The translations under genes were made by a program, and so were the position numbers. A stretch of DNA of 64,000 bases from contig NZ_CP023688.1 of the NCBI RefSeq assembly GCF_008704655.1, forward strand, positions 4,216,001 to 4,280,000. The letters run 5' to 3'. Source of the DNA: Streptomyces rimosus. Lineage in GTDB: Bacteria; Actinomycetota; Actinomycetes; Streptomycetales; Streptomycetaceae. Shown here piece after piece: positions 48,376 through 64,000 of the stretch. The notes below the pieces were generated by a model. That model ran no database searches and had not been told where the DNA came from. It saw only the letters and a list, made by a program, of their open reading frames with translations. Positions within the stretch are counted from its first letter, which is position 1. Each line of letters opens with the position of its first letter.

Positions 48376-49026
48376 TCACGTCACCCGTTGGAAAAGGTCC
48401 AAGCGATACGAGTTGCCGTGCCGGTGACTGGTCCGGCCCTCGATCGGCCGGAGGTCCGCCCGGTCGCGGAAGACCTTGTGCACCCCGTGGCCGGTCACGA
48501 TCTCCGCGGCGGCTTCCGTGGCGGGCGTGGTGCCGGGCTCGTCATGGACCCAATGCGCCAGCAGTACGTGCCCGCCCGGCCGAAGCAGGGCGGCGATCCG
48601 CGCAGCGGTCACATCGAGGTCGGGGCCCGAGAGGTAGTAACCGACCTCGGACATCACGATGAGGTCCAGCGGGTCCGCCAGGTGGGCCGGGAGGCTCTTG
48701 GCGTCCAGTTCGCCGGGGACGCGGAGGGTGCCGAAGGTGAGGTGGGGCAGGTCGGCGCAGTGCTGCCGGGCCTGTTCGACCGCGGCGGCGGAGCAGTCCG
48801 TGGCCAGCAGCTGGTCGCAGTGCGGCGCCAGCAGCCGGGTGAGGGCGCCGACGCCGCAGCCGATCTCCAGGGCCGAGCGGAAGCGTCCGGCCGGCAGCAG
48901 GGCGGCCGTGTCGGCGAACTTCTCCTGTTCGTACGGCTTGTGGAGGGTTCCCCACGGGTCGGGCTTGGACCGGTAGACCTTGTCGAAGTGTTCAGCCGAC
49001 ACCGATGTGCGGGGGCTGCCCGGCAT
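48376..49026 (-). CDS. NodS-like SAM-dependent methyltransferase
   Basis: A 216-aa class I methyltransferase. The N-terminus SAEHFDKVYRSKPDPWG and motif I ALEIGCGVGALTRLLAP, followed by LATDCSAAAVEQAR, are typical of the NodS group, which N-methylates amino groups of lipo-chitooligosaccharides. MSEVGYYLSG is the post-II region. The start overlaps the PIG-L gene by 35 bp. Predicted to N-methylate an amine of the cluster product, possibly one released by the PIG-L enzyme or the ureohydrolase. Confidence 0.85.
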   Translation of the reverse strand: MPGSPRTSVSAEHFDKVYRSKPDPWGTLHKPYEQEKFADTAALLPAGRFRSALEIGCGVGALTRLLAPHCDQLLATDCSAAAVEQARQHCADLPHLTFGTLRVPGELDAKSLPAHLADPLDLIVMSEVGYYLSGPDLDVTAARIAALLRPGGHVLLAHWVHDEPGTTPATEAAAEIVTGHGVHKVFRDRADLRPIEGRTSHRHGNSYRLDLFQRVT

Positions 49027-49795
49027 GACGGTTCCCTTCTCCGTTGTCGAGGGTGGCGGGGACCGCTTCCCAGATGAGTTCCGCCTGGAGCGGGCCCGGC
49101 CGCCGCAGGAACGGCCCGTGGCCGACCGCCACCGGCGCGAGCTGCGAGGTGTAGGACAGGACCGCCGCCCGTTTCGCGGCCCATTCGCGCTCGTCCAGGC
49201 GGATGTCGTGCGCCACGCGCAGCTCGTATGTGGCGGACAGGTCGCGGTAGGCGCCGCCGTACTTGTCGGAGCCGGCGAGCCGCTCGACCGCCGCGTCCGT
49301 GCCCCACTTGCGGACGCCGCCGGTGTAGGGCAGGTCCGCGTAGACGTACGGAGCCGGGCCGGGGCGTCCGGCCAGCGCCGCGAGGGCCTGGTCGCGTACG
49401 GCGGTGTGGTCGGGCTGATTGGTGCCGAGGGGGACCAGCACTCTGGTCTGCGGGGGAAGTGCGGTCAGGAAGTCGGCCAGCCCCGCCAGGTCGCCCCCCT
49501 CGCGGTACGGGCTGTCCGGGTTCGGGAGGGTCACCTGCTCGGCGCCGAGCAGTGCGCAGGCACGGGCGTCCTCGGCCAGGCGCTCGTGGTACGCCTCTTC
49601 CGGGGTGGCGAAGCCGCAGCCCGCGTCCCACCAGGAGATCCGGTCCGCCGCCGGGGCGCCGCCGTGGACGGTGACCACGGCGGTGGGCCCGGCGGTGCGG
49701 CCGAGGTATCCGGCGACGGACAGCGCGGCGTCGTCGAAGTGCGGCGAGAGGACCACGGTCGTCCAGCGCGGACCACGGCCAGGTGTGGCGGTCAC
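48992..49795 (-). CDS. PIG-L family N-deacetylase-like hydrolase
   Basis: A 267-aa zinc hydrolase from GTG 49795. Motif LSPHFDDAALS is the His-x-Asp-Asp site of PIG-L/MshB/LmbE enzymes and NQPDHTAVRDQ gives the distal His. The family deacetylates N-acetylglucosaminyl groups or cleaves other amides. The start overlaps the acyltransferase stop by GTGA. With a glycosyltransferase and a NodS-like methyltransferase it suggests a deacetylate-then-methylate step on a sugar or amine. Confidence 0.87.
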   Translation of the reverse strand: MTATPGRGPRWTTVVLSPHFDDAALSVAGYLGRTAGPTAVVTVHGGAPAADRISWWDAGCGFATPEEAYHERLAEDARACALLGAEQVTLPNPDSPYREGGDLAGLADFLTALPPQTRVLVPLGTNQPDHTAVRDQALAALAGRPGPAPYVYADLPYTGGVRKWGTDAAVERLAGSDKYGGAYRDLSATYELRVAHDIRLDEREWAAKRAAVLSYTSQLAPVAVGHGPFLRRPGPLQAELIWEAVPATLDNGEGNRHAGQPPHIGVG

Positions 49796-50499
49796 GGCTG
49801 GGCAGACGGCTCGGCGGGCTGTCCGGCACCGTCTGCCGCGGCGACCGAGGCGAGCAGCAGGCCCGCCGACGTCTTGCCGGTGGGGCTGGTGATGTACTCG
49901 GCGAGCAGGCGGCGTGCCTCGGCCTTGTCGGCCTCGGGGATGGTGTCGGGGAGGACGAAGGTCGGGTCGGTGCGCTTGAGTTCCTCGACCGCCGCGTAGT
50001 ACTCGTGCCGCAGCAGGCCCCATACGGCGCCGTCGTGGTGACGGCCGTCGAGGTAGAAGTACTCGCGCAGGATGCCTTCGAGGGTGAAGCCGACGCCGGT
50101 CACCAGGCGCATCACGTTCTTGTTGTAGAGCGCGGTGGTGAACGTGACCCGGTGGGCGTTGCGTGCGTGGAAGAGGTGGTCGATGAGCAGGTCGAACGCC
50201 TCGGCGCCGAAGCCGCGGCGCCACAGTTCGGGGTCGCCGATCGCGCCGCCGAGCACATAGCCGCCGACCGGGCCCTGTGCCTTGTAGTGCACCGCGCCCA
50301 CGGTCCGGTCCTCGCCGTCGCGCACCGCGAACTGCCGCAGGCCGCCGGTGTGGTCGAGCTTGCGGAAGTCCTCGGCGGTGACCACGTCGCCTTCGGTGGC
50401 GGCCATCACGGCGGCGGCCGAGTCGGGGCCGAACCACTGGGCCATCAGCTCGTAGTCCTGGTCGGCGGGGCGTTCGAGCCGGACGAGTTTGCCCTGCAT
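49792..50499 (-). CDS. GNAT-family acyltransferase, candidate lipid-to-peptide ligase
   Basis: A 235-aa GNAT (GGAGAA before ATG 50499). Acyl-CoA-binding features are VLGGAIGDPELWRRGFGAEAFDLLIDHLF and HRVTFTTALYNKNVMRLVTGVGFTLEGILREY, as in RimJ/RimL-type N-terminal transferases. In goadvionin biosynthesis (established) a GNAT, GdvG, condenses a long acyl chain with the lanthipeptide N-terminus. GNAT lipidases also act in selidamide pathways. Here it lies in the same cluster as LanKC and an ACP, so it is my candidate for joining acyl-ACP to the peptide. Simple acetylation is the alternative. Confidence 0.82.
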   Translation of the reverse strand: MQGKLVRLERPADQDYELMAQWFGPDSAAAVMAATEGDVVTAEDFRKLDHTGGLRQFAVRDGEDRTVGAVHYKAQGPVGGYVLGGAIGDPELWRRGFGAEAFDLLIDHLFHARNAHRVTFTTALYNKNVMRLVTGVGFTLEGILREYFYLDGRHHDGAVWGLLRHEYYAAVEELKRTDPTFVLPDTIPEADKAEARRLLAEYITSPTGKTSAGLLLASVAAADGAGQPAEPSAQP

Positions 50500-50588
50500 C
50501 AGTTCTCCGTTCCGGTCCTGCGCGAGGACCGTGGTCGCGGTGCTGTCGTAGCGGTGGTGTCGTAACGGTGCTGTGGTGGCCGGCCCGG

Positions 50589-51788
50589 TCAGCCCGTACG
50601 GACCGTGGTGGCAGCGGACCCGGCGCCGGCCACCAGGGCCTCGATGCGGTCGGCGGCTTCGGCCGCTCCCCCGGCCCCGCCCACCTCGTCCCGCATGCGC
50701 GCGACCCGGGACCGGATTCCGCCGTCGGTCATGACGCGTATCAGGGCGGTGCGCAGCGTGTCCGCGTCCAGGTGGTCGCGGTCCAGGCGCACGCCGAGGC
50801 CGAGGGCGTCGATGCGTTCGGCGACGGCGGTCTGTTCCTGGGTCTGCGGTACGGCCACCATGGGAGTGCCGTGCAGCAGGGCCTCCATGGTGGAGCCCAT
50901 GCCGGCGTGGGTGACGAAGGAGTCGGCGTGACGCAGTACGTCGAGCTGGGGGACGTGCGGGTGGGCCTCGACGTTTCCGGGGAGCGGGCCGATGGCGGCG
51001 CGGTCCATGCCCGGCCCGTAGGCCATGACGACCTGCCAGGGCTGCGATGCGACCGCCTCGCCGCACATACGGAAGAACTCGGGCCAGTCGTAGCAAGCCG
51101 TGCCGAGGGCGATCAGCAGGACCGGGCGGCCGTCCCCGGCCGGGCGCCAGCTGCCCTGGAAGCCGCGGTCGCCGGCGCACGGCCCGACGAAGGCGAACCG
51201 GTCGTCGAAGGTCTCGCCGTGGTACTGGAACGCGCGCGGCAGGAAGACCAGGCGCAGGTCCTCGGTGTGGCCGAGGAAGTCGGTGACCGAGCGGCCGGAC
51301 AGGTCGTGGGCGGCCAGGAACCGGGTCAGCTCCCGGGCGAAGCGCAGGACGCCGGGGTGCAGCGGGTTGTCGGCCAGGAACTCGGCCTCCAGCGAGAAGT
51401 GCTCGTTGGAGACGAACGAGGGCCACATCTCCGCCGCCGGCAGCCGCCACTTCGCGGCGAGCACCCGGCCCGCCCAGGCGATGCCGTCGTACGCGATCAC
51501 CTCGGGCCGGTCGGTGGCCCAGGCGTTCTCCAGCACGTCCAGCGTGGCCCTGGCCTCGCGCAGGAAGTCCATGGGAGAGATGGCCAGGCCGTCTTCGGTG
51601 AGCGCGTCGTCCACCGGGTTGCGGTAGACGACGGGTTCGGCGCCCGCGGCCCGTACGGCGGGCGCGAACGCCTCGGTGACGGCGTAGGAGACCCGGTGGC
51701 CGCGCCGGACGAGTTCCGCGACGAGGCCGAGTGTCGGGTTCACATGGCCGTGCCAGGCGATGGAGACGAAGCCGATGTGGCGCGGCAA
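50589..51788 (-). CDS. MGT-family GT-B glycosyltransferase
   Basis: A 399-aa glycosyltransferase like macrolide-inactivating OleD/MGT. TTG 51788 behind GGGGGAGG gives LPRHIGFVSIAWHGHVNPTLGL, the typical N-terminus. An in-frame TTG at 51821 has no ribosome binding site. The C-terminal donor site shows VTHAGMGSTMEALLHGTPMVAVPQ and TQEQTAVAERI. It probably transfers a UDP-sugar to the final product, either as a tailoring step or for self-protection. Confidence 0.88.
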   Translation of the reverse strand: MPRHIGFVSIAWHGHVNPTLGLVAELVRRGHRVSYAVTEAFAPAVRAAGAEPVVYRNPVDDALTEDGLAISPMDFLREARATLDVLENAWATDRPEVIAYDGIAWAGRVLAAKWRLPAAEMWPSFVSNEHFSLEAEFLADNPLHPGVLRFARELTRFLAAHDLSGRSVTDFLGHTEDLRLVFLPRAFQYHGETFDDRFAFVGPCAGDRGFQGSWRPAGDGRPVLLIALGTACYDWPEFFRMCGEAVASQPWQVVMAYGPGMDRAAIGPLPGNVEAHPHVPQLDVLRHADSFVTHAGMGSTMEALLHGTPMVAVPQTQEQTAVAERIDALGLGVRLDRDHLDADTLRTALIRVMTDGGIRSRVARMRDEVGGAGGAAEAADRIEALVAGAGSAATTVRTG

Positions 51789-51885
51789 GGCGCCCTCCCC
51801 CGTAGACGACGTTGTTGACAAAATATGACTACAGATTCAGCATATTCGACAACTCATGACTGGCGGTAGAGGGGCGGGGCGGCCG
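51789..51885. promoter_or_regulatory. Divergent promoter region of the cluster
   Basis: About 100 A+T-richer bp between the glycosyltransferase and the 199-aa gene. It holds ttgaca, two (a)tgac repeats 10 bp apart (51816 and 51826), another tgact at 51857, and an imperfect inverted repeat gttg-acaaaatatg / catattcgacaac. The tgact half-sites recur at 61760-61925, suggesting a shared regulator. No regulator gene is visible in the window. Confidence 0.5.
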
Positions 51886-52485
51886 ATGGCGACAGCGGAG
51901 ACGGGCCGGGCGGGCACCGGGCCCGACAGCGGCCGGCAGCCGGGCACCGTACGTCACGGAGCCGGCCTGGCGGCCACCGACGCCGGTCAACTGACCGACG
52001 CGGCAGGGAAGTTCGGGACGGCTGGCTTCACCGCCGCTCCCGAAGCGCACGTCAAGCCGGTGGACGCGGTCACCTGGGCGCTGCGGACCGCGTTCGAGGC
52101 CCTGCCGGAAGCCGTACGGACCACCGCCCCGCTGTACGTCCTGAGCGGCGCGTACAGCTCGTGGGCCGCCCGCCACTTCGTACGGCGCTGCCATGACACC
52201 GAGCGGCGGCTGCGGCCCTCGGACTCGATCGGCCTGGAGACCTCCGAGCTGGTCCGCCCCTACACCACCGCGTCCGGGCACCGCGGGGGCTGCTACCTCC
52301 TCGCGCCACTGCCGGTGGACACACAGGGCCCGGAGCGGGCCGCGGACGCGCCGCGCCCGCCCTGGCCCCTGGCCGCCATGCCGGGACCGGCCGTCCACCT
52401 GGACCTCTTCGTCTCACCCGGCGACGGCCCGCGCCCGGTGCACTGCCTCGCCGTCGCCACCGCCTGGAGTGTCACATGCCCGTGA
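51886..52485 (+). CDS. Unrecognised protein, possibly a ketosynthase-like accessory
   Basis: A 199-aa product from ATG 51886, behind GAGGGGCGGGG. It overlaps the downstream ketosynthase by 10 bp. The middle part (VDAVTWALRTAFEALPEAV, then APLYVLSGAYSSWAARHF) is loosely reminiscent of short N-terminal ketosynthase-like domains (PF13723 type), but there is no active-site Cys-His-His. The C-terminus is proline-rich and ends in a hydrophobic strand. Co-translation with the ketosynthase suggests an acyl-chain role. I cannot assign a family with confidence. Confidence 0.6.
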   Translation: MATAETGRAGTGPDSGRQPGTVRHGAGLAATDAGQLTDAAGKFGTAGFTAAPEAHVKPVDAVTWALRTAFEALPEAVRTTAPLYVLSGAYSSWAARHFVRRCHDTERRLRPSDSIGLETSELVRPYTTASGHRGGCYLLAPLPVDTQGPERAADAPRPPWPLAAMPGPAVHLDLFVSPGDGPRPVHCLAVATAWSVTCP

Positions 52486-53636
52486 AGGACCCCGTCAGTA
52501 ACCCCGTCAACGACATCGTCATCAGCGGCCTCGGGCTGGTCACCCCCTTCGGATCGGGCGTCGCGCCCTACTGGCGGGGGCTGCTCGAAGGCCGCTCGGC
52601 GCTGCGTCCGGCCCGGCGCTTCAAGGCGCCGTCCTATCGGGGCGAGCCGGTGGGCGAGGTGCCCGGACCGGACCCCGCGGCCGGGACGCCCCGTAAGAGC
52701 GCCTATGCGCGGTCCGCCATCGCGGAGGCCGTGGAGGCCGCCGGGCTGCCGGGCGTGCCGCGGGACGCCCTGGTGATCCTCGTCGGCCAGGCGCCGGGCA
52801 CGGGTCCGGAATCCGGCGCGGACCCCGCCTCCGAGCAGGAGTTCCTGGGCCCCGACCCGTCCGGCACCCTCGGTCCCGCCTTCGCGCCCGGCCGCGTCCT
52901 GCACCTCTCGCACGCCTGCGCCTCGGCCGTCTTCGCCGTCGGCTTCGCCCGCGAGGCCCTGCGCGCGGGTGTCGCGCCGGTCGCCGTGGTGGCGGGCTCG
53001 TCGGTCCTCAACCGGTACGAGTACGCGAGCATGGACGTCGTACGGGCCGTGGGCCGCGACGCCGCCCGCCCGTTCGACGCCGGGCGGGCGGGTATCTCGC
53101 TCGGCGAGGGCGGGGGAGCCGTCGTGCTGGAGACGGCCGGGCACGCCCGGTCGCGAGGCCATGTGGCCGATCTCGTGGTCGCCGGTGCGGCCTGCCGGGT
53201 GGCCGGGGCCAAGGCCGCAGCGTCGGACGCGGAGCTGATCGGCGCGTGCATGCGGGACGCGCTGGGGGACGCCGCGGTGGACGGGCTGGACCATGTGCAC
53301 GCCCACGCGACCGGCACCGCTCAGGGTGACGCCGCCGAACTCGCGGCCATCGAGGCCATCGCCGCCGAAACCGGCTCTTCCGCTCTGCCCGTCAGTTCGC
53401 ACAAGGGCGCCATCGGCCACCTGCTGCACATCTCGGGAGCCCCGGCCCTGGCCGCCGCCGCGCTGACCTTGCGTACCGGGACCGTTCCGCCGACCGCCGG
53501 GCTGGCGTCGGCGGAGGACACGGACCGGGTGGTGCTGCCGACGGCGCCGCTGCGGTTGCCGTCGGCCCGTACCGCCGCGGTGAACAGCTTCGGGTTCGGG
53601 GGGAACAACGCCTCGCTGATCCTGCGGGCCGTTTGA
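52476..53636 (+). CDS. FabF/KAS-II-like beta-ketoacyl synthase (plus strand)
   Basis: A 386-aa condensing enzyme. Catalytic triad: Cys in LSHACASAVFA, His in HAHATGTAQGDAAEL, His in KGAIGHLLHISG. NSFGFGGNNASL is the C-terminal signature. All three residues are present, so it is not an inactive chain-length factor. It probably elongates or primes the acyl chain on the discrete ACP. Translationally coupled to the 199-aa gene and convergent with the AMP ligase. Confidence 0.9.
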   Translation: MPVKDPVSNPVNDIVISGLGLVTPFGSGVAPYWRGLLEGRSALRPARRFKAPSYRGEPVGEVPGPDPAAGTPRKSAYARSAIAEAVEAAGLPGVPRDALVILVGQAPGTGPESGADPASEQEFLGPDPSGTLGPAFAPGRVLHLSHACASAVFAVGFAREALRAGVAPVAVVAGSSVLNRYEYASMDVVRAVGRDAARPFDAGRAGISLGEGGGAVVLETAGHARSRGHVADLVVAGAACRVAGAKAAASDAELIGACMRDALGDAAVDGLDHVHAHATGTAQGDAAELAAIEAIAAETGSSALPVSSHKGAIGHLLHISGAPALAAAALTLRTGTVPPTAGLASAEDTDRVVLPTAPLRLPSARTAAVNSFGFGGNNASLILRAV

Positions 53637-53671
53637 ACAGGCTGGATAACCGCGGGGATTGACGAAAGCGG

Positions 53672-53704
53672 CCGGCGGGCGGGACGCGATGTCCCGCCCG
53701 CCGG
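53672..53704. terminator. Bidirectional terminator between ketosynthase and AMP ligase
   Basis: A perfect 14-bp stem ccggcgggcgggac/gtcccgcccgccgg with a 5-nt loop, between two convergent stop codons. Confidence 0.88.
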
Positions 53705-53706
53705 TC

Positions 53707-55161
53707 TCAGCTTTCCAGCCCCACCATCCCCCGCAACGCCCCCGCGTCCACCTTTCCGTTGGCCGACAGCGGGAAGCTCTCCACCACGTGGACCGCGTTG
53801 GGCTGCTCGTACTCCGCCAGGTGTGTGGCCAGCCGGCGCCGCCACTCGGCGGGGGCGCCGCCCTCCGGGTCCGCCACGACGAAGTGCAGCGCGCTGCCGC
53901 GCCGGCTGTCCTCGACCGCCAGTACCTTCACCTGCCGCCCGGCGGCCTCCGCCTTGCGCTCCAGGCTCTCCGGGTAGAGCGTGAAGCCCAGCCGGTGCAC
54001 CGCCTGGTTGCGGCCGACCACGTGCAGGTTGCCCGCCTCGTCGAAGCGGCCGAGGTCGGCGGTCGGGTACCAGGTCGTGTGGCGTACGGGCGTGAGCGTG
54101 CCGTCCTCCAGCAGGTAGCCCTCCATCAGGCCCGGCGAGTCCACCTCGATCTCGCCCAGTTCGCCGGGCGCGGCCTCCCGGCCGTCCGGGGTGACCACCC
54201 GTATCCGTACGCCGGGCAGCGGACGGCCGCAGCCGGTCGGCGCTTCGGGCGTGGCCAGCGCGACGTTGCCCAGCTCGCTGAGGCCGTAGCCGTCCAGCAG
54301 CGGACGGCCCATGGCGGCCGGGAAGGCTTCGGCGAGCGGGGCGGGCAGCGGGGCGCCGCCCACGCCCCAGATCCGCACCCCGGCGAGGGCCGAGCGCAGT
54401 TCCGGGCGACGGCGGACGACGCCGAGCAGCGAGTGGTACGTGGACGGGGCGGCGTCCACGGCCGTGACGCCGTGCGCGGCGGCCTGGCCGACGGCGATGT
54501 CCAGCCGCTGGTACGGCGTGACGACCAGGGTGCAGCGGGCCAGCCACCACAGCAGGACGACGGACAGGCCGTACTGGTGGGAGAAGGGCAGCAGCGGGGC
54601 GAGCACGTCGTCGGCGCGGTAGCCCATGGCCTGGATGGTGCGCAGCGTGTTGTCGTGCACCGCGGGGCCCGACTTCACGATGCCTTTGGGGCGGCCGGTG
54701 GTGCCGGAGGACCACAGCACCACGGCATCCGGGCGCGCGAGCCAGGCGGTGAGATCGACCTCACCGGAGGGGGGCTCGGTGTCCGCGCCGAGGCCGGGGT
54801 AGCCGAGCACCCGGTCGGCGGGGAAGGCGGGGTCGGTGGTGCCGTCGGTGAGCAGCCAGCGGGCACGGGCCTGGCGGGCGGTGGCCCGGCCGTCGGCGGC
54901 GGACTGGCGGTGGTCGACCGGTACGAGCGAGGTGTCCAGGTGCATCAGGGCGAGCAGCGCCACGACGTAGTCGACGCAGTTGTCGCCCTTGACCAGGACG
55001 CGGTCGCCGGGGCATATGCCGCGGTCGCGCAGGACCCGGGCGGCGGCCAGCACCCGGCCGGTGAGGTCCGGCCCCGAAAGGCCGCCCTCGGCCGCGCCGA
55101 CGAGCCGGGGGGCGGGGACGGGGGGCGCCATCGTTTCGGTCATGCGGAGATCCGCTCCCAT
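53707..55161 (-). CDS. AMP-dependent acyl ligase
   Basis: A 484-aa class I adenylating enzyme. Motifs are VVLWSSGTTGRPKGIVKSG (A3), LLDGYGLSELGNVAL (A5), TADLGRFDEAGNLHVVGRN (A7-A8) and SANGKVDAGAL (A10 lysine). Shorter than NRPS domains and without a fused carrier. It should activate a carboxylic acid and load CoA or the stand-alone ACP, plausibly the starter. Start 55161 is 9 bp after the dehydratase stop; ATG 55143 is an alternative. Confidence 0.9.
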   Translation of the reverse strand: MGADLRMTETMAPPVPAPRLVGAAEGGLSGPDLTGRVLAAARVLRDRGICPGDRVLVKGDNCVDYVVALLALMHLDTSLVPVDHRQSAADGRATARQARARWLLTDGTTDPAFPADRVLGYPGLGADTEPPSGEVDLTAWLARPDAVVLWSSGTTGRPKGIVKSGPAVHDNTLRTIQAMGYRADDVLAPLLPFSHQYGLSVVLLWWLARCTLVVTPYQRLDIAVGQAAAHGVTAVDAAPSTYHSLLGVVRRRPELRSALAGVRIWGVGGAPLPAPLAEAFPAAMGRPLLDGYGLSELGNVALATPEAPTGCGRPLPGVRIRVVTPDGREAAPGELGEIEVDSPGLMEGYLLEDGTLTPVRHTTWYPTADLGRFDEAGNLHVVGRNQAVHRLGFTLYPESLERKAEAAGRQVKVLAVEDSRRGSALHFVVADPEGGAPAEWRRRLATHLAEYEQPNAVHVVESFPLSANGKVDAGALRGMVGLES

Positions 55162-55170: not shown

Positions 55171-55632
55171 TCAGCTTTTGTCATCGTTGCCGCGGCGGTC
55201 CGGCAGCAGCAGGGTGGAGGTCACGGTGCTCACCGGTGACCCGTCGGTGGCCCGGAACGCGCTCTCCAGCACCACGACCTCGCGGCCCGCGCGCCGGGAC
55301 GCGTCCTTCAGCCGTACGGTCACCAGCAGTTCGTCCCCGGCGTACGCGGGGCGGTGGTGCACGAAGCGCTCCTCGCGGTGGATCGTGCCCGCGCCGTCGG
55401 CGGGGGCGCCGAGATCGCGCAGCAGCCGTTCCTCGGCGCGGATCGCGAGGACGGCGAGGAACGTCGGCGGGGCGAGGACGTCCGGGTGGCCCAGGGCGCG
55501 GGCCGCCGCGGGGTCCGTGTGCGCGGGGTCGGCGGTGCCCACGGCCGCGGCGAACTCGCGGATCTTCTCGCGCTCGACCGCGTACGGGCCGAAGACGGCC
55601 CGGCGGCCGTCCTCCTCCCCCGACACGCTCAT
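55171..55632 (-). CDS. HadA/MaoC-type (FAS1-like) dehydratase
   Basis: A 153-aa hot-dog-fold protein. KIREFAAAVGTADPAHTDP and FLAVLAIRAEERLL follow the FAS1-like N-terminal MaoC family (HadA-type). RPAYAGDELLVTVRLKDA is the central strand. HadA-type subunits often need a HadB partner with the catalytic Asp/His, none of which is visible here. Predicted 3-hydroxyacyl-ACP dehydration. It overlaps the ureohydrolase gene by ATGA. Confidence 0.83.
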   Translation of the reverse strand: MSVSGEEDGRRAVFGPYAVEREKIREFAAAVGTADPAHTDPAAARALGHPDVLAPPTFLAVLAIRAEERLLRDLGAPADGAGTIHREERFVHHRPAYAGDELLVTVRLKDASRRAGREVVVLESAFRATDGSPVSTVTSTLLLPDRRGNDDKS

Positions 55633-56655: not shown

Positions 56656-57426
56656 TCAGCTTCCGATCATGTGGTGGCCGCCGTCGGCGTGCACGATCTC
56701 GCCGGTGGTGGCGGGCAGCCAGTCCGAGAGCAGCGCCAGGCAGGTGCGGGCCACCGGCTCGGCGTCCGCGGGGTCCCAGCCCAGCGGGGCGCGCGTCGCC
56801 CAGTCCTTCTCGAAGGCCGGGCCGTCGCCGCCGATGCCGCGGGCGGCCAGGGTGCGCAGCGGGCCCGCCGCGACGAGGTTGACCCGGACGTTGTCGGGCC
56901 CGAGGTCCCTCGCCAGGTAGCGGGAGCAGGCCTCCAGCCCGGCCTTGGCCACGCCCATCCAGTCGTAGCCGGGCCAGGCGCGCGAGGCGTCGAAGTCCAG
57001 GCCCACGATGGAGGCGCCGGGCGCCAGCAGCGGGCGGCAGGCGGTGGCCAGGGCGGTGAGGGAGTACGTGGACGTGTGCAGGGCAGCGGACACGTCGGCC
57101 CACGGCGCCGTCAGGAACCCGCCGTCGAGGCAGGTGGCGGAGGCGTGGGCGACGGAGTGCAGGACGCCGTCGATGCCGTCGAGGTGCGCGCCCACGCGGT
57201 CGGCGAGGGTGGCGAGCTGGTCCGCGTCGGTGACGTCGAGTTCGACGACCGGGGGCTCGTCGGGAAGGCGGCGGGCGAGCCGCTGGACGAGGGTGGGGCG
57301 CCCGTACGCGGTCAGCACGATCCGCGCGCCCTGCTGCTGTGCCAGCCGGGCCACGGCGTAGGCGATGGAACTTTCGCTGATCACACCGGTGATGACCAGC
57401 CTCTTGCCGTCGAGCAGGCCGCTCAT
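56656..57426 (-). CDS. FabI/InhA-type enoyl-ACP reductase
   Basis: A 256-aa SDR. LVITGVISESSIAYAVARLAQQQG is the FabI/InhA NAD-binding N-terminus (Gly-x5-Ser-Ile-Ala). GYDWMGVAKAGLEAC places the catalytic Tyr and Lys in the ENR spacing (Tyr-x6-Lys). HADGGHHMIG is the usual end. Reduces trans-2-enoyl-ACP, so the product chain is expected to be at least partly saturated. Lies downstream of the precursor hairpin in the minus-strand operon. Confidence 0.9.
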   Translation of the reverse strand: MSGLLDGKRLVITGVISESSIAYAVARLAQQQGARIVLTAYGRPTLVQRLARRLPDEPPVVELDVTDADQLATLADRVGAHLDGIDGVLHSVAHASATCLDGGFLTAPWADVSAALHTSTYSLTALATACRPLLAPGASIVGLDFDASRAWPGYDWMGVAKAGLEACSRYLARDLGPDNVRVNLVAAGPLRTLAARGIGGDGPAFEKDWATRAPLGWDPADAEPVARTCLALLSDWLPATTGEIVHADGGHHMIGS

Positions 57427-57461
57427 CCGGGCTCCTCACAGATGGTTCGGGAAAAGAGTTG

Positions 57462-57497
57462 AGCTCCGGTGCCCGCCCGCGGGCGGGCACCGGAGCT
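57462..57497 (-). terminator. Perfect 36-bp palindrome after the lanthipeptide precursor gene
   Basis: An 18-bp stem agctccggtgcccgcccg and its complement, 14 bp past the precursor stop. Probably a partial terminator or RNA-stabilising hairpin that raises precursor mRNA relative to the downstream enzyme genes, as is common in lanthipeptide operons. Confidence 0.88.
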
Positions 57498-57511
57498 GGC
57501 GCTCAGCGCGT

Positions 57512-57598
57512 TCAGCAGTGGCTGCTGACGGTGCTGGAGACGCGCGCGGCCTCCTCGGCGGGGACCTCGAGGCCCTGCAGGTCGAGAACGATCGACAT
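57512..57598 (-). CDS. Class III lanthipeptide (lipolanthine-like) precursor peptide
   Basis: A 28-aa peptide with an excellent GGAGAGGAGG ribosome binding site. It starts MSIVLDLQGLEVPAEEAA; the LDLQGLE-like box resembles the leader recognised by class III synthetases. It ends RVSSTVSSHC. Ser22-x2-Ser25-x2-Cys28 at the very C-terminus is the substrate pattern for labionin/avionin-type rings. A terminal Cys suits oxidative decarboxylation to avionin. The candidate core SSTVSSHC has eight residues, as I recall for goadvionin. It lies 67 bp after the LanKC stop. Role inferred from leader, motif and context. Confidence 0.85.
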   Translation of the reverse strand: MSIVLDLQGLEVPAEEAARVSSTVSSHC

Positions 57599-57665
57599 GG
57601 TGTTTCCTCCTCTCCACTGACTCGGTGTTCGGTTTTTCCGGTCGGCCTGGGGGCCGGCCGGAAGC

Positions 57666-60296
57666 TCAGGGGGCGCGGTGGTCCGCGCCGGTGGGCCGGC
57701 CGCTCCGCGGGGCCAGGAAGGGCAGGAAGTCCCGCCTCCCGTCCAGGGCCGCGGTCAGGGCCAGCAGGATGCCCGGTCCGCCGGTGGCCAGGTCCATCGA
57801 GATCCGGCGCAACTGGTCGCCGGGGAAGGCGAGATGGCCGTGGTAGGACAGCGCGTGCCAGTGCAGCCGTGTCAGGTGCCGCTCGACGCCGAGGTCCGGT
57901 TCCGGCCGCGGGTCGCGGGCCCGCAGCGCGGCGAGCGTGGCCAGCAGGCCGGCCCGGCCGCCGAACAGGTTCGGTTCGATGGTGAACTCCGGCTCCGCGG
58001 CGCGGACCAGCAGCGGCAGTGCCTCCGCCAGCCGTGCGTCGGCGCGGTGGGCCAGCACCTGGTCGGCGACGAGGGCGATGCCCGCGGTGCCCACCTCCAG
58101 GTAGGGCAGCTGACGGAACCCGCCGTCCACCTGGAGCGAACCGTCCTCGCCGGTGGCGCACAGGTCGAGGTCGTGGTGCAGCGCCCGTACGGCCAGGTCG
58201 AGGTGCGCCGCGTCGGACGTGTCCTCGTACAGCCGCAGGAAGAACAGGGCCGCTCCCGACCAGCCGTGCAGCAGTCCGGCCCGGCTGCCCCGGCCGGGGC
58301 CCGCGGCGATGCCCGGGGCGGTCCCGGCCGTGACGGCGGCGGCCGTCCGGTCGGCCAGGCGGAGGGCCTGGTCGCGGTGGTCGCCGCTGCCCGTGCGGGC
58401 GGCGAAGTCCAGCAGGTTCAGTCCGGCCCCCGCCATGCCGCGGAAGAGGCTCACCTCGGCCATCGCGTCCGTGGCCGTCCGACAGCCGTCGAGCAGGCGC
58501 CCGGCGGCCTCCAGATGGCCGAAGCCCGCGAGGACGTGGGCGATGCCGTGCGCTCCGTCGTAGAAGCCGGGCCGCTGCGGCCGGTCGCGTTCGACGGCGT
58601 CCAGCAGCCACTGCTCGTATTCGGGGAAGCGGCCCGCTCCGGCGGTGTCCAGCGCCCACAGGACGCCCGCGGCACCGTAGGCGAAGTTGAGGCCGTCGGT
58701 CGTGAACTGCCGTACGTCTCCGGGGAAGAGCCGGTCGGCGCGCTGCGGCGTGGCGGACAGCAGGACCGCCTCGGCCAGCGACTTGCGTGCCGCGGCCCAG
58801 TCGGGCAGCGAGGTGTCCAGGCGGACGCCCAGCGGTTCGCGGAGCGCCGCGGGCACCCGGTTCAGGGCCGCCTCGCCGGGGGCGAGTTCGTGGCGGAGCG
58901 CGTCCAGGGAGCCGGCCGGCAGGGCGAACCTGCGCTCGGCCACGTCCACGTACGCCGCCGCGCGGCCCGGGTCCAGTTCGTTGAGCCCGGTGAGTGGGAA
59001 GAGCAGCCACAGGCGCAGCGCTGCCAGCGCGTGCCGGTCGATGCCGTAGCCGGTGCGGCCGGTGCCGGCGAAGCCGGGGTGGCCCATGCCGAGCCGGTCC
59101 GCCTCGGCGACGGGGACGCACAGTTCGAAGTCGACCAGCGCGACCTCGTCGGCGTCGTCCGTCTCGGTCACGAGGATGTTCGCCGGGTGGAGGTCGCCGA
59201 AGACCATGCCGCGCTCGTGCACCCGGGCGACCAGGGCATCGATGCGGTCGGCCAGGGCCTGCGCCCGGCGCACGTACGCGCTCAGCGCCGCGGGCTCGGG
59301 GCGGGCCTTGGTCAGCGGGTAGTGCCGGGCGAGCCAGCCTTGGAGGGTGTCGCCCTCCAGGTGCTGCACGGACAGGAAGTGGTGTTCCCACACCACGCGG
59401 TGCTCGTGCAGGGCCGGGATGCCGGGCAGGCCGGCGAGGTGTTCCATGGCCCGGCGTTCGCGGTCCAGCCGGGCGACCGCGTCCAGGCCGAGGCCGTCCA
59501 GTCCGGCGTTCGGGCGGGCCTCCTTGAGGACCACCTTGCGGCCTTCGGTGTCGCGGGCCTGGTAGACGCCGCCGCCGTTGGAGAAGTGCAGGGCGCGCTC
59601 GACCTTGTACGGGAAGTCCGACGCGGAGCCGCCCGCCTGGCGGGCGGCGAGCTGTTCGGCGAGGAAGCCGGGCAGCTCGACCCACTCGGGCACCTCGAAG
59701 ACCGGGCGGCGGCGGTCGGGGACCAGCGTGCCGTCGGGGCGTTCGATGGCGGGCACGGCGGTGCCGTCGTCGTCGGTGCAGTAGCGGGTGACGAAGCCGC
59801 CGTAGCGTACGTGCAGCGGACCGGCGCCCCACCGCAGGTCGGTGAGGATGTACGGACCGGCCGTGCCGTCCAGGCGCTGCCCCAGCTCCACGAGGGTGCG
59901 GTGCAGCTGCTCCTCGTCGGACGGGTAGATCGTCACGAGCTTGCCGCTGGAGGAACGCGGCGCGTACTTGAGGCTGTGGGTGGTCAGGACGTCAACGCCG
60001 CGCAGGAACTTGAACGGCAGGCCGTTCGCGGTGCAGTAGTCCCAGGCGGTGTCCACGACGTGCCGCGCGTTGTCCGGCAGGCCGGAGATGTGGATCTTCC
60101 AGCCCTGCTGCGGCAGGGCGTGGCCGAGCGGGGTGTGGACGATCCACACGTCCATCTCGCGGCGCTCCCAGCCCGCGGGGGCGGGGGCGTGGGTCTGCGC
60201 GAAGGCGTGCGAGTCGTCGGCGGTGTGGCGGCCGGCGATGTCGTAGAAGACGGGGTCGGCCTGGCAGAACGCCTCGGGCTGCGGTCCGGTGGTCAT
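57666..60296 (-). CDS. Class III lanthionine synthetase LanKC
   Basis: An 876-aa trifunctional enzyme. Residues 1-~200: phosphoSer/Thr lyase-like region. ~210-480: Ser/Thr kinase with VVLKEARP (Lys ~258) and GDLHPANILV...VDFELC (catalytic loop and metal-binding Asp). ~540-876: cyclase-like alpha toroid (GFYDGAHGIAHVL, LLHGWSGAALFF, SYHGHLAFPGDQ) with no full Cys-Cys-His zinc set, which sets class III apart from class IV. It phosphorylates, eliminates and cyclises the precursor to labionin/lanthionine rings. The start overlaps the ketosynthase stop by ATGA. Confidence 0.93.
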   Translation of the reverse strand: MTTGPQPEAFCQADPVFYDIAGRHTADDSHAFAQTHAPAPAGWERREMDVWIVHTPLGHALPQQGWKIHISGLPDNARHVVDTAWDYCTANGLPFKFLRGVDVLTTHSLKYAPRSSSGKLVTIYPSDEEQLHRTLVELGQRLDGTAGPYILTDLRWGAGPLHVRYGGFVTRYCTDDDGTAVPAIERPDGTLVPDRRRPVFEVPEWVELPGFLAEQLAARQAGGSASDFPYKVERALHFSNGGGVYQARDTEGRKVVLKEARPNAGLDGLGLDAVARLDRERRAMEHLAGLPGIPALHEHRVVWEHHFLSVQHLEGDTLQGWLARHYPLTKARPEPAALSAYVRRAQALADRIDALVARVHERGMVFGDLHPANILVTETDDADEVALVDFELCVPVAEADRLGMGHPGFAGTGRTGYGIDRHALAALRLWLLFPLTGLNELDPGRAAAYVDVAERRFALPAGSLDALRHELAPGEAALNRVPAALREPLGVRLDTSLPDWAAARKSLAEAVLLSATPQRADRLFPGDVRQFTTDGLNFAYGAAGVLWALDTAGAGRFPEYEQWLLDAVERDRPQRPGFYDGAHGIAHVLAGFGHLEAAGRLLDGCRTATDAMAEVSLFRGMAGAGLNLLDFAARTGSGDHRDQALRLADRTAAAVTAGTAPGIAAGPGRGSRAGLLHGWSGAALFFLRLYEDTSDAAHLDLAVRALHHDLDLCATGEDGSLQVDGGFRQLPYLEVGTAGIALVADQVLAHRADARLAEALPLLVRAAEPEFTIEPNLFGGRAGLLATLAALRARDPRPEPDLGVERHLTRLHWHALSYHGHLAFPGDQLRRISMDLATGGPGILLALTAALDGRRDFLPFLAPRSGRPTGADHRAP

Positions 60297-61636
60297 CGGC
60301 CCTCCTCCTTCGGCTGCCGGTCCTGACGGCCCGCGGTGTCCGCGGCGCCGGGCCAGGCGCGGACGACGAGGACGGCGTTGTGCCCGCCGAACCCGAACGA
60401 GTTGCTGAGCACCGCGCGGACCGCGTGCTCACGGGCCTTGTGCGGTACGTAGTCGAGCGTGGTGTCCTCGGGGTCGTCGCAGTTGACCGTCGGCGGCACC
60501 AGGCCGGTACGGATCGTCTGGACGGCGGCGATCAGCTCCACGGCGCCGGCCGCGCCGATCATGTGGCCGGTCATCGACTTGAGCGAGCTGATGGGCACCC
60601 GCGGGGCGTGGCCGCCGAGGACCGCGTGGATCGCGGCGCTCTCGATGCGGTCGTTGAGCTGGGTGCTGGTGCCGTGTGCCGAGACGTGGTCGATGTCCTC
60701 GGGACGAAGGCCCGCGTCGGCGAGCGCGTCGGTCATCGCCTGCCGGGCGGCCAGGCCGTCGGGGTGCGGGTGGGTCGAGTGGTAGGCGTCGGTGGTGGCG
60801 CCGTACCCGGCCACCTCGGCCAGGATCGTGGCGCCGCGCCGCACCGCGTGCTCGGCGTCCTCCAGGACGACGATGCCGGCGCCCGCGCCCATCACGAAGC
60901 CGTCGCGCTGCCGGTCGAAGGGCCGGCTGACCAGGTGCGGGTCGTCGTCGCGGCGGGAGAGCGCCCCGGCGTTGGCGGCGGCGCCCAGGTCGAGCGGGTT
61001 GACCGCGTCGTCCGCGCCGCCGGCGATCGCGACATCGGCGTAGCCGTGCCGGATCATGCGCAGCGCGTCGCCGACGCAGGTCGCGCCGGTGGCGCAGGCG
61101 GTGACGGTGGCGCCGGAGGCGCCGCGGGCCCCGAAGCGGGCGGCGATCTCACCGGCCGCGCTGTCCAGGGAACCGCCGGAAGCGAGGTAGGGCGTCATCC
61201 GGCGGCGGCCGTGGTCGCGCAGGTCGTGGATGGCCGTGCGCATCAGCTGGCCGGGGCCGTAGCCGGAGCCGACCAGGACGGCCGTACGGGTGGCGAGTTC
61301 CTCGCCGATCGTCAGCCCGGCCTGGTCCATCGCCTGGAGGGCGGCGGCGAGCCCGAACTGCGCGAAGCGGTCCAGGCGCCGGCTCACCTTGTTCGGCATG
61401 TACGGCTTGGGGTCGAAGCCCACGACCTCGCCGGCGAACCGGGTGGGCAGGGCGTCCACGTCGTAGCGCGTGATGGGGCGGATGCCGCTCTGTCCGGCGG
61501 TGGCAGCGGCCCAGAACTCCTCGACGGTGTGGCCGATCGGGGAGATGGTGCCGCAGCCGGTGATCACCACGCGGCGCTCCGCGCCGGCGGGCCGGGTCAG
61601 GGCCGGGTTCCGGTTCGCGTCCTGCGTCGGTGCCAT
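60293..61636 (-). CDS. FabF-type beta-ketoacyl-ACP synthase II (minus strand)
   Basis: A 447-aa KAS-II. VVITGCGTISPIGHTVEEFW is the N-terminus. Catalytic Cys in TACATGATCVGDAL (about residue 180), His in SAHGTSTQLND and His in MTGHMIGAAGAVE. NSFGFGGHNAVLVV ends the fold. First gene of the operon KS-LanKC-precursor-ENR-ureohydrolase-dehydratase-ligase. ATG 61636 has GGAAGGGAGG upstream. Its direct overlap with lanKC ties acyl-chain elongation to lanthipeptide formation. Confidence 0.93.
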   Translation of the reverse strand: MAPTQDANRNPALTRPAGAERRVVITGCGTISPIGHTVEEFWAAATAGQSGIRPITRYDVDALPTRFAGEVVGFDPKPYMPNKVSRRLDRFAQFGLAAALQAMDQAGLTIGEELATRTAVLVGSGYGPGQLMRTAIHDLRDHGRRRMTPYLASGGSLDSAAGEIAARFGARGASGATVTACATGATCVGDALRMIRHGYADVAIAGGADDAVNPLDLGAAANAGALSRRDDDPHLVSRPFDRQRDGFVMGAGAGIVVLEDAEHAVRRGATILAEVAGYGATTDAYHSTHPHPDGLAARQAMTDALADAGLRPEDIDHVSAHGTSTQLNDRIESAAIHAVLGGHAPRVPISSLKSMTGHMIGAAGAVELIAAVQTIRTGLVPPTVNCDDPEDTTLDYVPHKAREHAVRAVLSNSFGFGGHNAVLVVRAWPGAADTAGRQDRQPKEEGR

Positions 61637-61924: not shown

Positions 61925-62914
61925 ATGCCGCGCTGGAGCACCCTGCTGCTCGACGACGCCAAGCTCGCCGAGATGCCCCGCCTGCCCCTGGACGACGTAC
62001 TCCGGCACGCGGACCTCGTCACCGAGCAGCAGCCGCACCCCCAGGCGCTCTACGAGCGCTGGGAGAAGCAGCAGTGGTCCGCCCAGGCCATCGAACTGGA
62101 GCCGGACCGCGAGGACTTCGACAAGCGGCTGCCGCGCTCCGCGCGCAAGGCGATCGAGGAGTCCATCGCCACCTTCATCATCGGCGAGTACACCGGCCTG
62201 GACCTGCTCGGCCCCATCCTGACCGGCGCCCCCGAGGAGCGCGACCACCTCTACCTCGGCACCCAGATCGCCGACGAGACCCGGCACACCCAGCTGATGC
62301 TGCGCCTCGGCGAGGAGCTGCTCGGCCTGGATTCCGACCCCAAGCGGATGCTCGTCCAGGCGTGGAACATGGTCACCCCGCCGCACCGGGACCTCAGCCG
62401 CCTGGAGACCGAGGTCATCCGCGAACTCCAGGAACACCCCTCGGACTACCGGCGCTGGCTGCGCGCCGTGGCGCTCTTCCACCTGATCACCGAGGGCGTG
62501 CTCGCCCTGGTCGGCCAGCGCGCCATCGTCAACTCGCTGCACGGCGTACCGCTGCTGGCCGGGGTGAAGGCCGGCTTCACCGCGATGGCCCGCGACGAGT
62601 CCCGGCACGTCAGCTTCGGCCTGCACGCCCTGCGCATCGGGATCAAGGAGGGCTACGGCGACGACATCCGCGAGGTCATCGAGCAGGCCGCGCCGATCGC
62701 CCTGAACATCGAGGAGGGCGGCCAGGTCGACGACGCCCCGCAGGGGCTGACCATGAAGCAGCTCGGCATCGAGAGCCTGTACCGGCAGCTCCGCCTCATC
62801 GGCATCGAGCGGCAGTTCGCGGACCACGTCGTGGCGCTGTCCATGCCCACGCCGGCCGCCGCCGAAGACGCCGAGGCCGCCGGGAACGCCGAGAACACCG
62901 CCTCGCACTCCTGA
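61925..62914 (+). CDS. R2-like di-iron oxidase (ribonucleotide reductase beta-like)
   Basis: A 329-aa ferritin-like protein. Metal ligands: Glu in FIIGEYTG, Glu/His in ADETRHTQ, Glu in HLITEGVLALVG, and Glu/His in DESRHVSFG. A Glu at the first position, instead of the Asp of class I R2, resembles R2lox-type oxidases. No R1 gene is near, so it is a biosynthetic oxygenase or desaturase candidate for the acyl chain or an amine. Start ATG 61925 behind CACGGAG. It heads the plus-strand unit with ACP and P450. Confidence 0.85.
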   Translation: MPRWSTLLLDDAKLAEMPRLPLDDVLRHADLVTEQQPHPQALYERWEKQQWSAQAIELEPDREDFDKRLPRSARKAIEESIATFIIGEYTGLDLLGPILTGAPEERDHLYLGTQIADETRHTQLMLRLGEELLGLDSDPKRMLVQAWNMVTPPHRDLSRLETEVIRELQEHPSDYRRWLRAVALFHLITEGVLALVGQRAIVNSLHGVPLLAGVKAGFTAMARDESRHVSFGLHALRIGIKEGYGDDIREVIEQAAPIALNIEEGGQVDDAPQGLTMKQLGIESLYRQLRLIGIERQFADHVVALSMPTPAAAEDAEAAGNAENTASHS

Positions 62915-62983
62915 CCCGCCCGGACGCGCCCGCGCGTCCACCGCACCCCGAGCCACACCCCACACCACAGAGAGGTAACCACC

Positions 62984-63229
62984 ATGACGCGTGAAGAGAT
63001 CATCGCCGGACTCGCCGAGATCCTCAACGAGGTCGCCGACGTCGAACCCGCCGAGGTGAGCGAGGAGAAGGCCTTCATCGAGGACCTGGACGTCGACTCG
63101 CTGGCCATGGTCGAGGTCATCGTCGCCGTCGAGGAGCGCTTCGGCGTCAGCCTCCCCGAGGAGGAGCTGAAGGAGCTGCGCCTGGTCTCCGACATCGTGC
63201 TCCGCGTCGAGAAGCAGCTGACGGCCTGA
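62984..63229 (+). CDS. Acyl carrier protein
   Basis: An 81-aa stand-alone ACP. FIEDLDVDSLAMVEVIVAVEE holds the phosphopantetheine Ser in the DSL motif. The length and acidic profile are normal. A strong AGAGAGG ribosome binding site precedes ATG 62984. It should carry the growing acyl chain for the ketosynthases, dehydratase and enoyl reductase of the cluster, and may be the donor for the GNAT. Confidence 0.95.
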   Translation: MTREEIIAGLAEILNEVADVEPAEVSEEKAFIEDLDVDSLAMVEVIVAVEERFGVSLPEEELKELRLVSDIVLRVEKQLTA

Positions 63230-63254
63230 GCGCCGCGGCGGCCCGCACCAGACC

Positions 63255-63294
63255 GGTGCGCCCCGCCCCTGCCCCCGAAGGGGCGGGGCGCACC
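63255..63294 (+). terminator. Strong hairpin between ACP and P450
   Basis: A perfect 16-bp stem ggtgcgccccgcccct/aggggcggggcgcacc with an 8-nt loop, 25 bp past the ACP stop and 18 bp before the P450 start. Probably attenuates read-through so that ACP is made in excess over P450. Confidence 0.88.
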
Positions 63295-63312
63295 TTCCAG
63301 CCAGGAGGCACC

Positions 63313-64000
63313 ATGAGCGACCCGGCCGCGGTACGCCGGGCCCTGCGCGCGCTGTTCAGCCCGCTGGGCTGCCCCGACCCGTACCCGCACTACGCGGTGC
63401 TGCGGGAGCACGGGCCGGTCTCCCGGCTGCCGGACGGCACCGTCGTCGTCAGCCGGCACGCCGACTGCGACCGCGTGCTGCGCGATCCGCTCTTCCGGGT
63501 CGAGGACGACGCGTACCTCGCCCGTACCTGGCCCGAGGGCCGCGACCACCTCAGCGTCTTCTCCCTGATGGGCGAGATGGTCAACCAGAACTCGCCGCAC
63601 CACGAGCGGCTGCGCCGCCTGGTGGGCCGCGCCTTCACCCCGCGCCGGGTGGCCGGGCTGCGGCCCGCGGTGGAGAAGCTGGTCGACGGCCTGCTGGACG
63701 GCCTCGCCGAACGGGCCGCCGGGGGCGCTCCGGTGGATCTGATGGAGCACTTCGCGCTGCCGCTGCCGATCACCGTCATCGGCGAGCTGCTCGGCATCCC
63801 CGAGGAGGACCGCGCCTGGTTCGCGCCGCGCGTGCAGGCCGTCACCTCCGCGATCGAGCAGAACCTCGCCGGGGAGGCGCTGGAGCGCGCGGACGAGGCC
63901 ACCGCGGAGCTGTGGGACCGGCTCGGCGCGCTGGCCGCCCGGCGCCAGGAGGACCCGCGCGCCGACCTGGTCAGCACGCTCATCGCGGTACGCGAGGAGG
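63313..64000 (+). CDS. Cytochrome P450 (3' truncated by the window)
   Basis: The first 229 residues of a bacterial class I P450, with AGGAGG before ATG 63313. It shows HYAVLREHGPVSRLPDG, NSPHHERLRRLVGRAFTPRRV (C-helix with the His-x3-Arg haem-propionate pair) and LPITVIGELLGIPEEDR. The oxygen-binding threonine, ExxR and haem Cys would follow after 64000. Likely hydroxylates or desaturates the lipid or peptide of the cluster product. Confidence 0.92.
   Translation, partial: MSDPAAVRRALRALFSPLGCPDPYPHYAVLREHGPVSRLPDGTVVVSRHADCDRVLRDPLFRVEDDAYLARTWPEGRDHLSVFSLMGEMVNQNSPHHERLRRLVGRAFTPRRVAGLRPAVEKLVDGLLDGLAERAAGGAPVDLMEHFALPLPITVIGELLGIPEEDRAWFAPRVQAVTSAIEQNLAGEALERADEATAELWDRLGALAARRQEDPRADLVSTLIAVREE

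Follow-up and report, generated by a model that had tools for sequence, protein, structure and literature searches.

A probable locus in Streptomyces rimosus for making a solabiomycin-like, fatty-acylated class III lanthipeptide

Introduction

Goadvionins are reportedly lipolanthines made jointly by polyketide synthase (PKS) and ribosomally synthesised and post-translationally modified peptide (RiPP) pathways; they are said to carry a trimethylammonio acyl chain, a polyketide chain and an avionin, and GdvG is named in their context. Formation of the avionin needs LanD. For the lipoavitides, non-modular fatty acid synthases are said to serve acylation, going by the title of their description. 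Solabiomycins A and B from Streptomyces lydicus are described as polar-functionalised fatty-acylated RiPPs in a 2026 review (PMC13192320), which writes solabiomycin A as 1*GG^2*IA^^GGA^, with 1* for 13-guanidinotridecanoyl and 2* for dehydrobutyrine, and gives B with V in place of I. Here we describe a gene cluster at the right end of a 64,000 nt stretch of the Streptomyces rimosus genome (the window; 4216001-4280000 of contig C1, a 9.36 Mb single-contig genome). Judged by its genes, the locus quite probably makes a solabiomycin-like class III lanthipeptide with a fatty acyl group. Its product is best read as a labionin octapeptide with an N-terminal acyl group and with a guanidine end that is cut back to an amine and then decorated.

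Lipidation of class III lanthipeptides by acyltransferases of the GNAT family has been described (PMC13060382), and nocaviogua carries a bismethylated guanidino fatty acid (PMC10435860). A literature search found no published description of the window cluster; the primary solabiomycin papers lay outside its reach and may list it. A wide mining of lanthipeptides describes another S. rimosus compound, birimositide (PMC7268733).

Precursor, LanKC and predicted ring

Genes were called by codon-position G+C, including stretches beyond the window, with starts assigned by frame and context. Families derive from profile searches with Pfam, TIGR, NF and PRK models, and bit scores are given against the model cut-off (score/cut-off). 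All genes listed in the initial annotation of the window have open frames and belong to the stated families. From left to right the cluster holds a methyltransferase (MT), a PIG-L deacetylase, a GNAT acyltransferase and a glycosyltransferase (GT) on the minus strand, hyp209 and a second ketosynthase (KS2) on the plus strand, then on the minus strand an AMP-dependent acyl ligase, a dehydratase subunit (DH), a ureohydrolase, an enoyl-acyl carrier protein reductase (ENR), LanA, LanKC and a first ketosynthase (KS1), followed by an R2-like di-metal oxidase (R2ox), an acyl carrier protein (ACP) and a cytochrome P450 on the plus strand. It extends ~10 kb beyond the window end at 64000. The operon formerly proposed for a class III LanKC, an S-x2-S-x2-C precursor, KS, ENR, dehydratase, ureohydrolase and AMP ligase is borne out by the minus-strand run from KS1 through LanKC, LanA, ENR, ureohydrolase and DH to the AMP ligase, in which the genes are spaced by -4, 67, 85, 1, -4 and 9 nt. 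The flanking ACP, R2-like oxidase, P450, GNAT, PIG-L, NodS-like MT and GT were likewise found by profile matches. A FabF-type KS lies in the operon as annotated, but the count of one KS does not stand, given the second one at 52476-53636.

LanKC (57666-60296, minus strand) is a class III lanthionine/labionin synthetase that matches NF038151 with 1000.7 bits (cut-off 575), RamC_N (PF25816) with 264 bits and LANC_like (PF05147). Its RamC-N/lyase, kinase and LanC-like parts together with a precursor with xLxLQ-type leader alongside place the system in class III. This precursor, LanA, is the 28-residue peptide MSIVLDLQGLEVPAEEAARVSSTVSSHC (57512-57598, minus strand), recognised by its reading frame and an upstream AGGAGG. 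It carries the S-x2-S-x2-C pattern and the leader motif VLDLQ, and its predicted core is SSTVSSHC.

A LanKC query returned nine loci in the genome collection. Six loci are referred to here as window-type, i.e. the window itself, a second S. rimosus strain (NRRL WC-3904, L012), S. composti (L013), S. virginiae (L014), strain NRRL F-2664 (L015) and G036; two further handles, G042 and G048, agree in PF02441 coordinates with the genomes of L014 and L012, were taken to be the same genomes and were counted once. The LanKC of strain WC-3904 is 97% identical to that of the window. LanA homologues are present in all six loci, identical in WC-3904 and G036 and 76-83% identical in the other three, with tails reading SSTVSSHC, SSTISNNC or ASTASNHC. 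Because of this conservation LanA is more than a chance open reading frame (ORF), a possibility that we rejected. A PHROGs search with LanA gave no match.

A 17-bp inverted repeat without mismatches lies between LanA and ENR, and a T-rich stretch comes after it (57463-57496, minus strand). The 85-nt gap folds at -47.8 kcal/mol, and similar stems follow LanA in the other four loci folded (L012, L013, L014 and L015). This element may keep precursor mRNA in excess over that of the chain genes.

The ring type was approached via PF02441, the LanD fold, with searches covering a first set of ten genome handles, of which two were duplicates, and a second set of eleven. In none of the six window-type genomes does a match lie close to the cluster; the nearest one in the window genome is ~180 kb away, and in the other five the matches lie on other contigs. 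Among these, the cluster contig of G395 is C7, and the match positions in G393 exceed the 29,680 bases of its cluster contig. In G094 and G385, two further genomes with related clusters, a match is located within ~4 kb of LanKC, in G385 together with a type I PKS gene. Since no LanD-family gene is found near the window-type clusters, a labionin rather than an avionin is predicted for them, and an avionin for G094 and G385; a LanD acting from elsewhere is possible. Avionin was thus rejected for the window. The initial annotation had called the cluster lipolanthine-like. In the strict (avionin) sense it is not a lipolanthine cluster.

Comparison with solabiomycin-type loci

The GNAT acyltransferase (49792-50505, minus strand; PF13302) is a candidate for joining the acyl-ACP to the peptide N-terminus. 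Searching with it matched 53 of 392 Streptomyces genomes at E <= 1e-12. The 15 matches at E <= 1e-40 comprise four window-type loci and eleven others, all of which were searched with the window proteins and for precursors, while genes were individually read in G137, G094, G385, G309 and G361. LanKC is present in the fetched stretch for 14 of these 15, and the remaining one (G309) ends with the contig beside LanA-like ORFs. Seven of the eleven loci encode three precursors each, ending in ALGSTISGGC, ALGSTVSGGC, ALGSTVSTGC or ALGSTISTGC. By our own reading of the published structure strings, the cores of solabiomycins A and B are GSTISGGC and GSTVSGGC, with a labionin from Ser2, Ser5 and Cys8 and with Thr3 dehydrated. 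We call the seven loci solabiomycin-type because their precursor endings match this core. Every precursor read from a GNAT-bearing cluster ends in x-S-T-x-S-x-x-C, and SSTVSSHC fits this pattern. Identity to the window GNAT is 43-47% in all seven solabiomycin-type loci, 42% in G094 and 35-39% in G361, G385 and G309. One solabiomycin-type genome, G194, has a weak PF02441 match (26.5 bits) ~4.5 kb from LanA, which we did not treat as LanD.

The likeness extends to the enzymes. All seven solabiomycin-type loci encode KS1, a thiamine diphosphate (ThDP) enzyme, an aldehyde dehydrogenase (ALDH), an XRE regulator, GNAT, LanKC, an ABC permease and a FAD-NAD(P)-binding protein (PF13454 in G137), and six encode DH, ENR, ACP, AMP ligase and a phosphopantetheinyl transferase (PPTase)-like protein, G194 being cut by a contig end. 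Identities to the window proteins are 86-88% for ENR and 72-76% for the AMP ligase (six of seven loci each), 75-80% for ALDH and 70-73% for the ThDP enzyme (seven of seven each). Both the octapeptide core and the set of ThDP enzyme, ALDH, AMP ligase, KS, ENR, ACP and GNAT are found in the window cluster. A type I PKS query taken from G385 gave only partial, KS-sized matches in the solabiomycin-type loci and only partial matches in the window-type loci (17-25% of its length), and a type I PKS was rejected as source of the acyl chain. The view that discrete type II enzymes define an undescribed subclass is therefore not upheld: the seven solabiomycin-type loci hold the same free-standing set and, as far as they were read, show no type I PKS, so that, if their identification is right, such a set is not new. 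What we found undescribed is narrower and comprises the pair of KS2 and a half-length KS, the R2-like oxidase, the ureohydrolase and the set of GT, PIG-L and MT.

The two types also differ. R2ox, P450, KS2, hyp209 and a transporter of the major facilitator superfamily (MFS) occur in 6/6 window-type and 0/7 solabiomycin-type loci, setting aside a G191 hit to P450 that covers 26% of its length, and hits to KS2 at 32-34%. The latter sit at the place of KS1 in all seven loci, and KS2 was hence counted absent there. Ureohydrolase, GT, PIG-L and MT are found in 5/6 versus 0/7 loci. Conversely, the ABC permease is encoded in 7/7 solabiomycin-type and 0/6 window-type loci. The same holds for the FAD-NAD(P)-binding oxidase (G137 query), which likely corresponds to SolS; its absence bears on the sulfoxide only. 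According to the review, solabiomycins inhibit Mycobacterium tuberculosis in strict dependence on a sulfoxide-stabilised ring (PMC13192320). As the suspected sulfoxide gene is absent, such activity cannot be assumed for the window type. A divergent class III cluster in G361 (C21, ~87000-102000; L082, L083) has a GNAT, GSTISNSC precursors and a FabG-like gene; its FAD protein is 38-39% like the solabiomycin-type one.

In the LanKC tree the six window-type sequences form one clade and the seven solabiomycin-type sequences another (100/100 each). Instead of joining the solabiomycin type, the window clade falls together with G094/G385, L020 and four LanKCs of Pseudonocardiaceae (88/92), albeit with long-branch warnings. 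The ENR tree in turn unites window and solabiomycin types (86/94). Identities follow the same lines: LanKC is 51% identical to that of G385 and 47-48% to the solabiomycin type, ENR 63-65% to G385/G309 and 86-88% to the solabiomycin type. This is suggestive only, and the cluster may be a mosaic.

Enzymes of the acyl chain

KS1 (60293-61636, minus strand) is a FabF-type ketosynthase (TIGR03150, 522.8/493.75 bits) with ACATG, HGTST and SSLKSMTGH motifs. Its partners on the same strand are ENR (56656-57426), which is of FabI/InhA type (PRK07889, 393.4/299), the HadA-like DH (55171-55632; PF13452, FAS1_DH_region, 94.3 bits; HadA NF040624 106.8, below the cut-off of 180) and the AMP-dependent acyl ligase (53707-55161; PF00501, 184 bits). 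ACP (62984-63229, plus strand) matches PRK00982 (101.9/84) and displays a DVDSL phosphopantetheine motif. The cluster has no ketoreductase, including the ~10 kb past the window, and no leader protease was seen among its annotated genes.

The second of the two KS genes of the cluster, KS2 (52476-53636, plus strand; PF00109/PF02801), overlaps hyp209 (51856-52485, plus strand) by 10 nt. It has Cys-His-His motifs (HACAS, HATGT and SSHKGAIGH), and a classical Cys-less chain length factor (CLF) was accordingly rejected. No family could be assigned to hyp209; its modelled structure is similar to the first half of the fold of ketosynthases, in the manner of a short CLF (ApeC). The fold match of hyp209 to a KS-fold partner, as in an ApeO/ApeC kind of pair, is weak, while the motifs of KS2 are present.

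R2ox (61925-62914, plus strand; PF00268, Ribonuc_red_sm, 47.3/33.6) has as best PDB match an R2-like ligand-binding oxidase (46 bits) and stays below the R2lox family cut-off (best NF006200, 81.7 vs 194). All six window-type sequences contain ETRH118 and ESRH225, candidate metal ligands by the di-metal pattern of R2 proteins. Across the 392 Streptomyces genomes R2ox gave six matches at E <= 1e-60, i.e. the window, G036, G042 and G048 (87-97%) and the distant G162 and G224 (46-51%), which read EARH117 and ESRH224. Searches among relatives of G042 and of the window genome returned only genomes already found. The P450 gene (63256-64000, plus strand; PF00067, 104 bits) is cut by the window end and runs to genome position 4280542. 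The cluster is a concrete place to learn what an R2-like oxidase and a half-length ketosynthase partner do in acyl-chain assembly.

The distant clusters in G162 (C6, ~97000-107400; L032) and G224 (C3, ~92500-102900; L033) have counterparts of ALDH, ThDP enzyme, AMP ligase, KS2 and R2ox of the window cluster, and of part of hyp209. The 59-60 kb of sequence searched there yielded no LanKC. By eye, the G162 cluster also has ATP-grasp, FkbH-like and asparagine-synthase-like genes.

The ureohydrolase (55629-56654, minus strand) matches PF00491 (Arginase) with 288.8 bits and the agmatinase model TIGR01230 (190.4/174.3). It exhibits GGDH, DAHAD and SVDVDVVDP motifs, and its closest solved structures are proclavaminate amidinohydrolase, agmatinase 2, guanidinobutyrase and 3-guanidinopropionase. 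Such guanidino-acid relatives fit a putative deguanidination of the tail or the starter.

Conservation of the end-group genes

In four further Streptomyces loci (L012, L013, L014 and L015) those genes that are present run in the same order, starting with ALDH and ending with GNAT or MT. DH had no match in the S. virginiae and F-2664 clusters, and G036 was left out of the DH count, as the respective stretch reads N. The S. composti cluster encodes two identical LanA copies (L013 12684-12902) and a FabG-like ketoreductase (L013 14450-15157; FabG1 model 329.5 bits, cut-off 420).

The S. composti cluster lacks ureohydrolase, GT, PIG-L and MT, its GNAT being followed by unrelated genes, and no close copy of any of the four exists elsewhere in the genome. 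Searching the whole genome gave no PIG-L match at E <= 1e-3 and no MT above 39% (best E 8e-6); the best ureohydrolase and the best GT are 41% identical each. Relatives of ureohydrolase and GT at 41-42% lie outside the cluster in all three of S. composti, S. virginiae and F-2664, and the clusters of the latter two hold their own copies of ureohydrolase, MT, GT and PIG-L at 67-88%. The end-group set is absent from S. composti as a unit. Together with the window cluster this relative forms a natural pair with and without these four genes for learning their roles at the end group.

Proposed biosynthesis

Based on these genes, the ThDP enzyme and ALDH would make an arginine-derived guanidino acid, which the AMP ligase would activate. 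The chain would be lengthened on ACP by KS1, DH and ENR, perhaps with KS2/hyp209 as second condensing pair and with ketoreduction supplied by primary metabolism. LanKC would form a labionin from Ser2, Ser5 and Cys8 and dehydrate Thr3, a protease encoded elsewhere would remove the leader, and GNAT would transfer the finished chain to the peptide N-terminus. Specific to the window variant, the ureohydrolase would cut the guanidine to an amine, R2ox and P450 would oxidise the chain, GT would add a sugar to be deacetylated by PIG-L, and the NodS-like MT would N-methylate the amine of this sugar or else the one at the chain end. In these general terms the initial proposal of a lipidated class III lanthipeptide with free-standing chain enzymes, an amine or guanidine end and sugar and methyl tailoring is supported by the genes.

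The site of methylation can be read in two ways. MT (48376-49026, minus strand) is a class I methyltransferase (PF05401 49.2 bits, PF08242 61.3 bits; NodS NF041650 65.8, below the cut-off of 300) with 4isc as closest solved structure followed by NodS (3ofj), and its relatives by protein search did not separate the two. It might act on the amine that the ureohydrolase sets free at the end of the chain, yielding a methylated or trimethylammonium tip as reported for goadvionins, with GT and PIG-L serving self-resistance or a separate decoration. We regard this as a serious contender that falls somewhat short of being expected. Chain-end methylation is reportedly present in the kindred goadvionins. 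The bismethylated guanidino fatty acid of nocaviogua provides another example (PMC10435860). Moreover ureohydrolase and MT co-occur in five of six loci and are both absent from S. composti. GT (50589-51815, minus strand; TIGR01426, 413.7/260) belongs to the MGT/OleI family, which is of resistance type. However, GT and PIG-L follow the same presence and absence as MT and ureohydrolase, so that this distribution does not discriminate between both readings; moreover, the closest named family is NodS, which acts on a sugar amine.

Alternatively GT, PIG-L and MT may work in order on one sugar, with N-acetylglucosamine transfer, deacetylation and N-methylation leading to a glucosamine-type lipolanthipeptide. 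This is credible without being probable. PIG-L (48992-49795, minus strand; PF02585, 36.3/28.2) has the Dbv21 and teicoplanin Orf2 pseudoaglycone deacetylases of glycopeptide antibiotics as nearest solved relatives, and the nearest named family of MT is NodS. The genes for PIG-L, MT, GNAT and GT lie side by side, and GT, PIG-L and MT are jointly missing in S. composti. The PIG-L structure match is nevertheless weak (E 2e-5 to 3e-3), and the ureohydrolase is lost along with the set although this sequence of steps does not need it.

A combination of all these traits is doubtful. In it, a dedicated amidinohydrolase would turn the guanidino-fatty-acid tail into an amine, and the molecule would then bear a deacetylated, N-methylated aminosugar. 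A KS with half-length partner would build or shape the chain, along with an R2-type oxidase recruited from a non-RiPP pathway that is itself uncharacterised. The end-group set would be gained or lost as a unit, with S. composti keeping the guanidine.

It is improbable that R2ox, KS2, hyp209 and P450 constitute a separate pathway inside the lanthipeptide cluster. In G162 and G224, KS2 (49-50%) and R2ox (47-52%) do occur with distant ALDH, ThDP enzyme and AMP ligase, as does a portion of hyp209 (39-41% over 29-37% of its length), but in the window type these genes are interleaved in the same order in all six loci, including S. composti at 59-90% identity. Finally, an ordinary class III lanthipeptide without acyl group, similar to SapB or labyrinthopeptin, next to an unrelated locus for fatty acids would recall L016 and L019, whose LanKCs are 49-51% identical and where 22 kb of sequence showed no acyl-chain gene, but is very hard to reconcile with the 4-nt overlap of KS1 and LanKC, with ENR, ureohydrolase, DH and AMP ligase downstream of LanA and with an octapeptide ending that matches the precursors of GNAT-bearing clusters and not those of L016, L019 and L020.

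Neighbouring genes and distant relatives

The initial annotation had advised to extend the sequence beyond 64000 in search of LanD and a ketoreductase. The cluster indeed continues there, but neither was found in it. Present are an MFS transporter (genome 4280630-4282228, minus strand), the ThDP enzyme (4283177-4284955, minus), ALDH (4284892-4286133, minus), a second MFS transporter (4286254-4287699, minus), the XRE regulator (4287726-4288997, plus) and the PPTase-like protein (4289069-4289869, minus; PF01648 17.5 bits, under the cut-off of 25). To the left, window positions 40481-46739 contain a tRNA-Pro (cgg) followed by ORFs with lower third-position G+C (~0.69-0.80), one of them a DUF4365 protein; this stretch looks like an integrated element adjoining the cluster. 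In two stretches from Umezawaea (L017, L018; 6.6-12.5 kb) a LanKC of ~50% identity has an ACP and a KS (~40%) lying 1.4-2 kb upstream of it; these loci may represent a further family of acylated class III peptides.

Comparison with known systems

Like goadvionins, the window type combines a class III core with an acyl chain joined by a GNAT, and an amine-tipped, methylated chain is conceivable. Goadvionins reportedly differ by polyketide chain and avionin, whereas the window type has neither type I PKS nor LanD. Two loci, G385 and G309, look goadvionin-like in this respect, with type I PKS genes of 1876 and 2489 codons as called, in G385 along with a LanD-family gene. Microvionin and nocavionin are class III peptides with an N-terminal lipid as well, reportedly with an avionin made with LanD, in contrast to the window cluster. 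Lipoavitides, compared by description only, share free-standing acyl enzymes and N-terminal acylation of a RiPP but are said to carry a short, different acyl group.

The solabiomycin type is closest. Both have an x-S-T-x-S-x-x-C core, a predicted labionin-type ring, discrete KS, DH, ENR and ACP, AMP ligase, ThDP enzyme, ALDH, GNAT, XRE regulator and a PPTase-like gene. It has an ABC permease where the window type has MFS, and its LanKC is only 47-48% identical. Taken together, the window cluster belongs to a known kind of pathway, that of the solabiomycins, and its distinctive parts are the pair of KS2 and a half-length KS, the R2-like oxidase along with P450, the ureohydrolase and the set of GT, PIG-L and MT.

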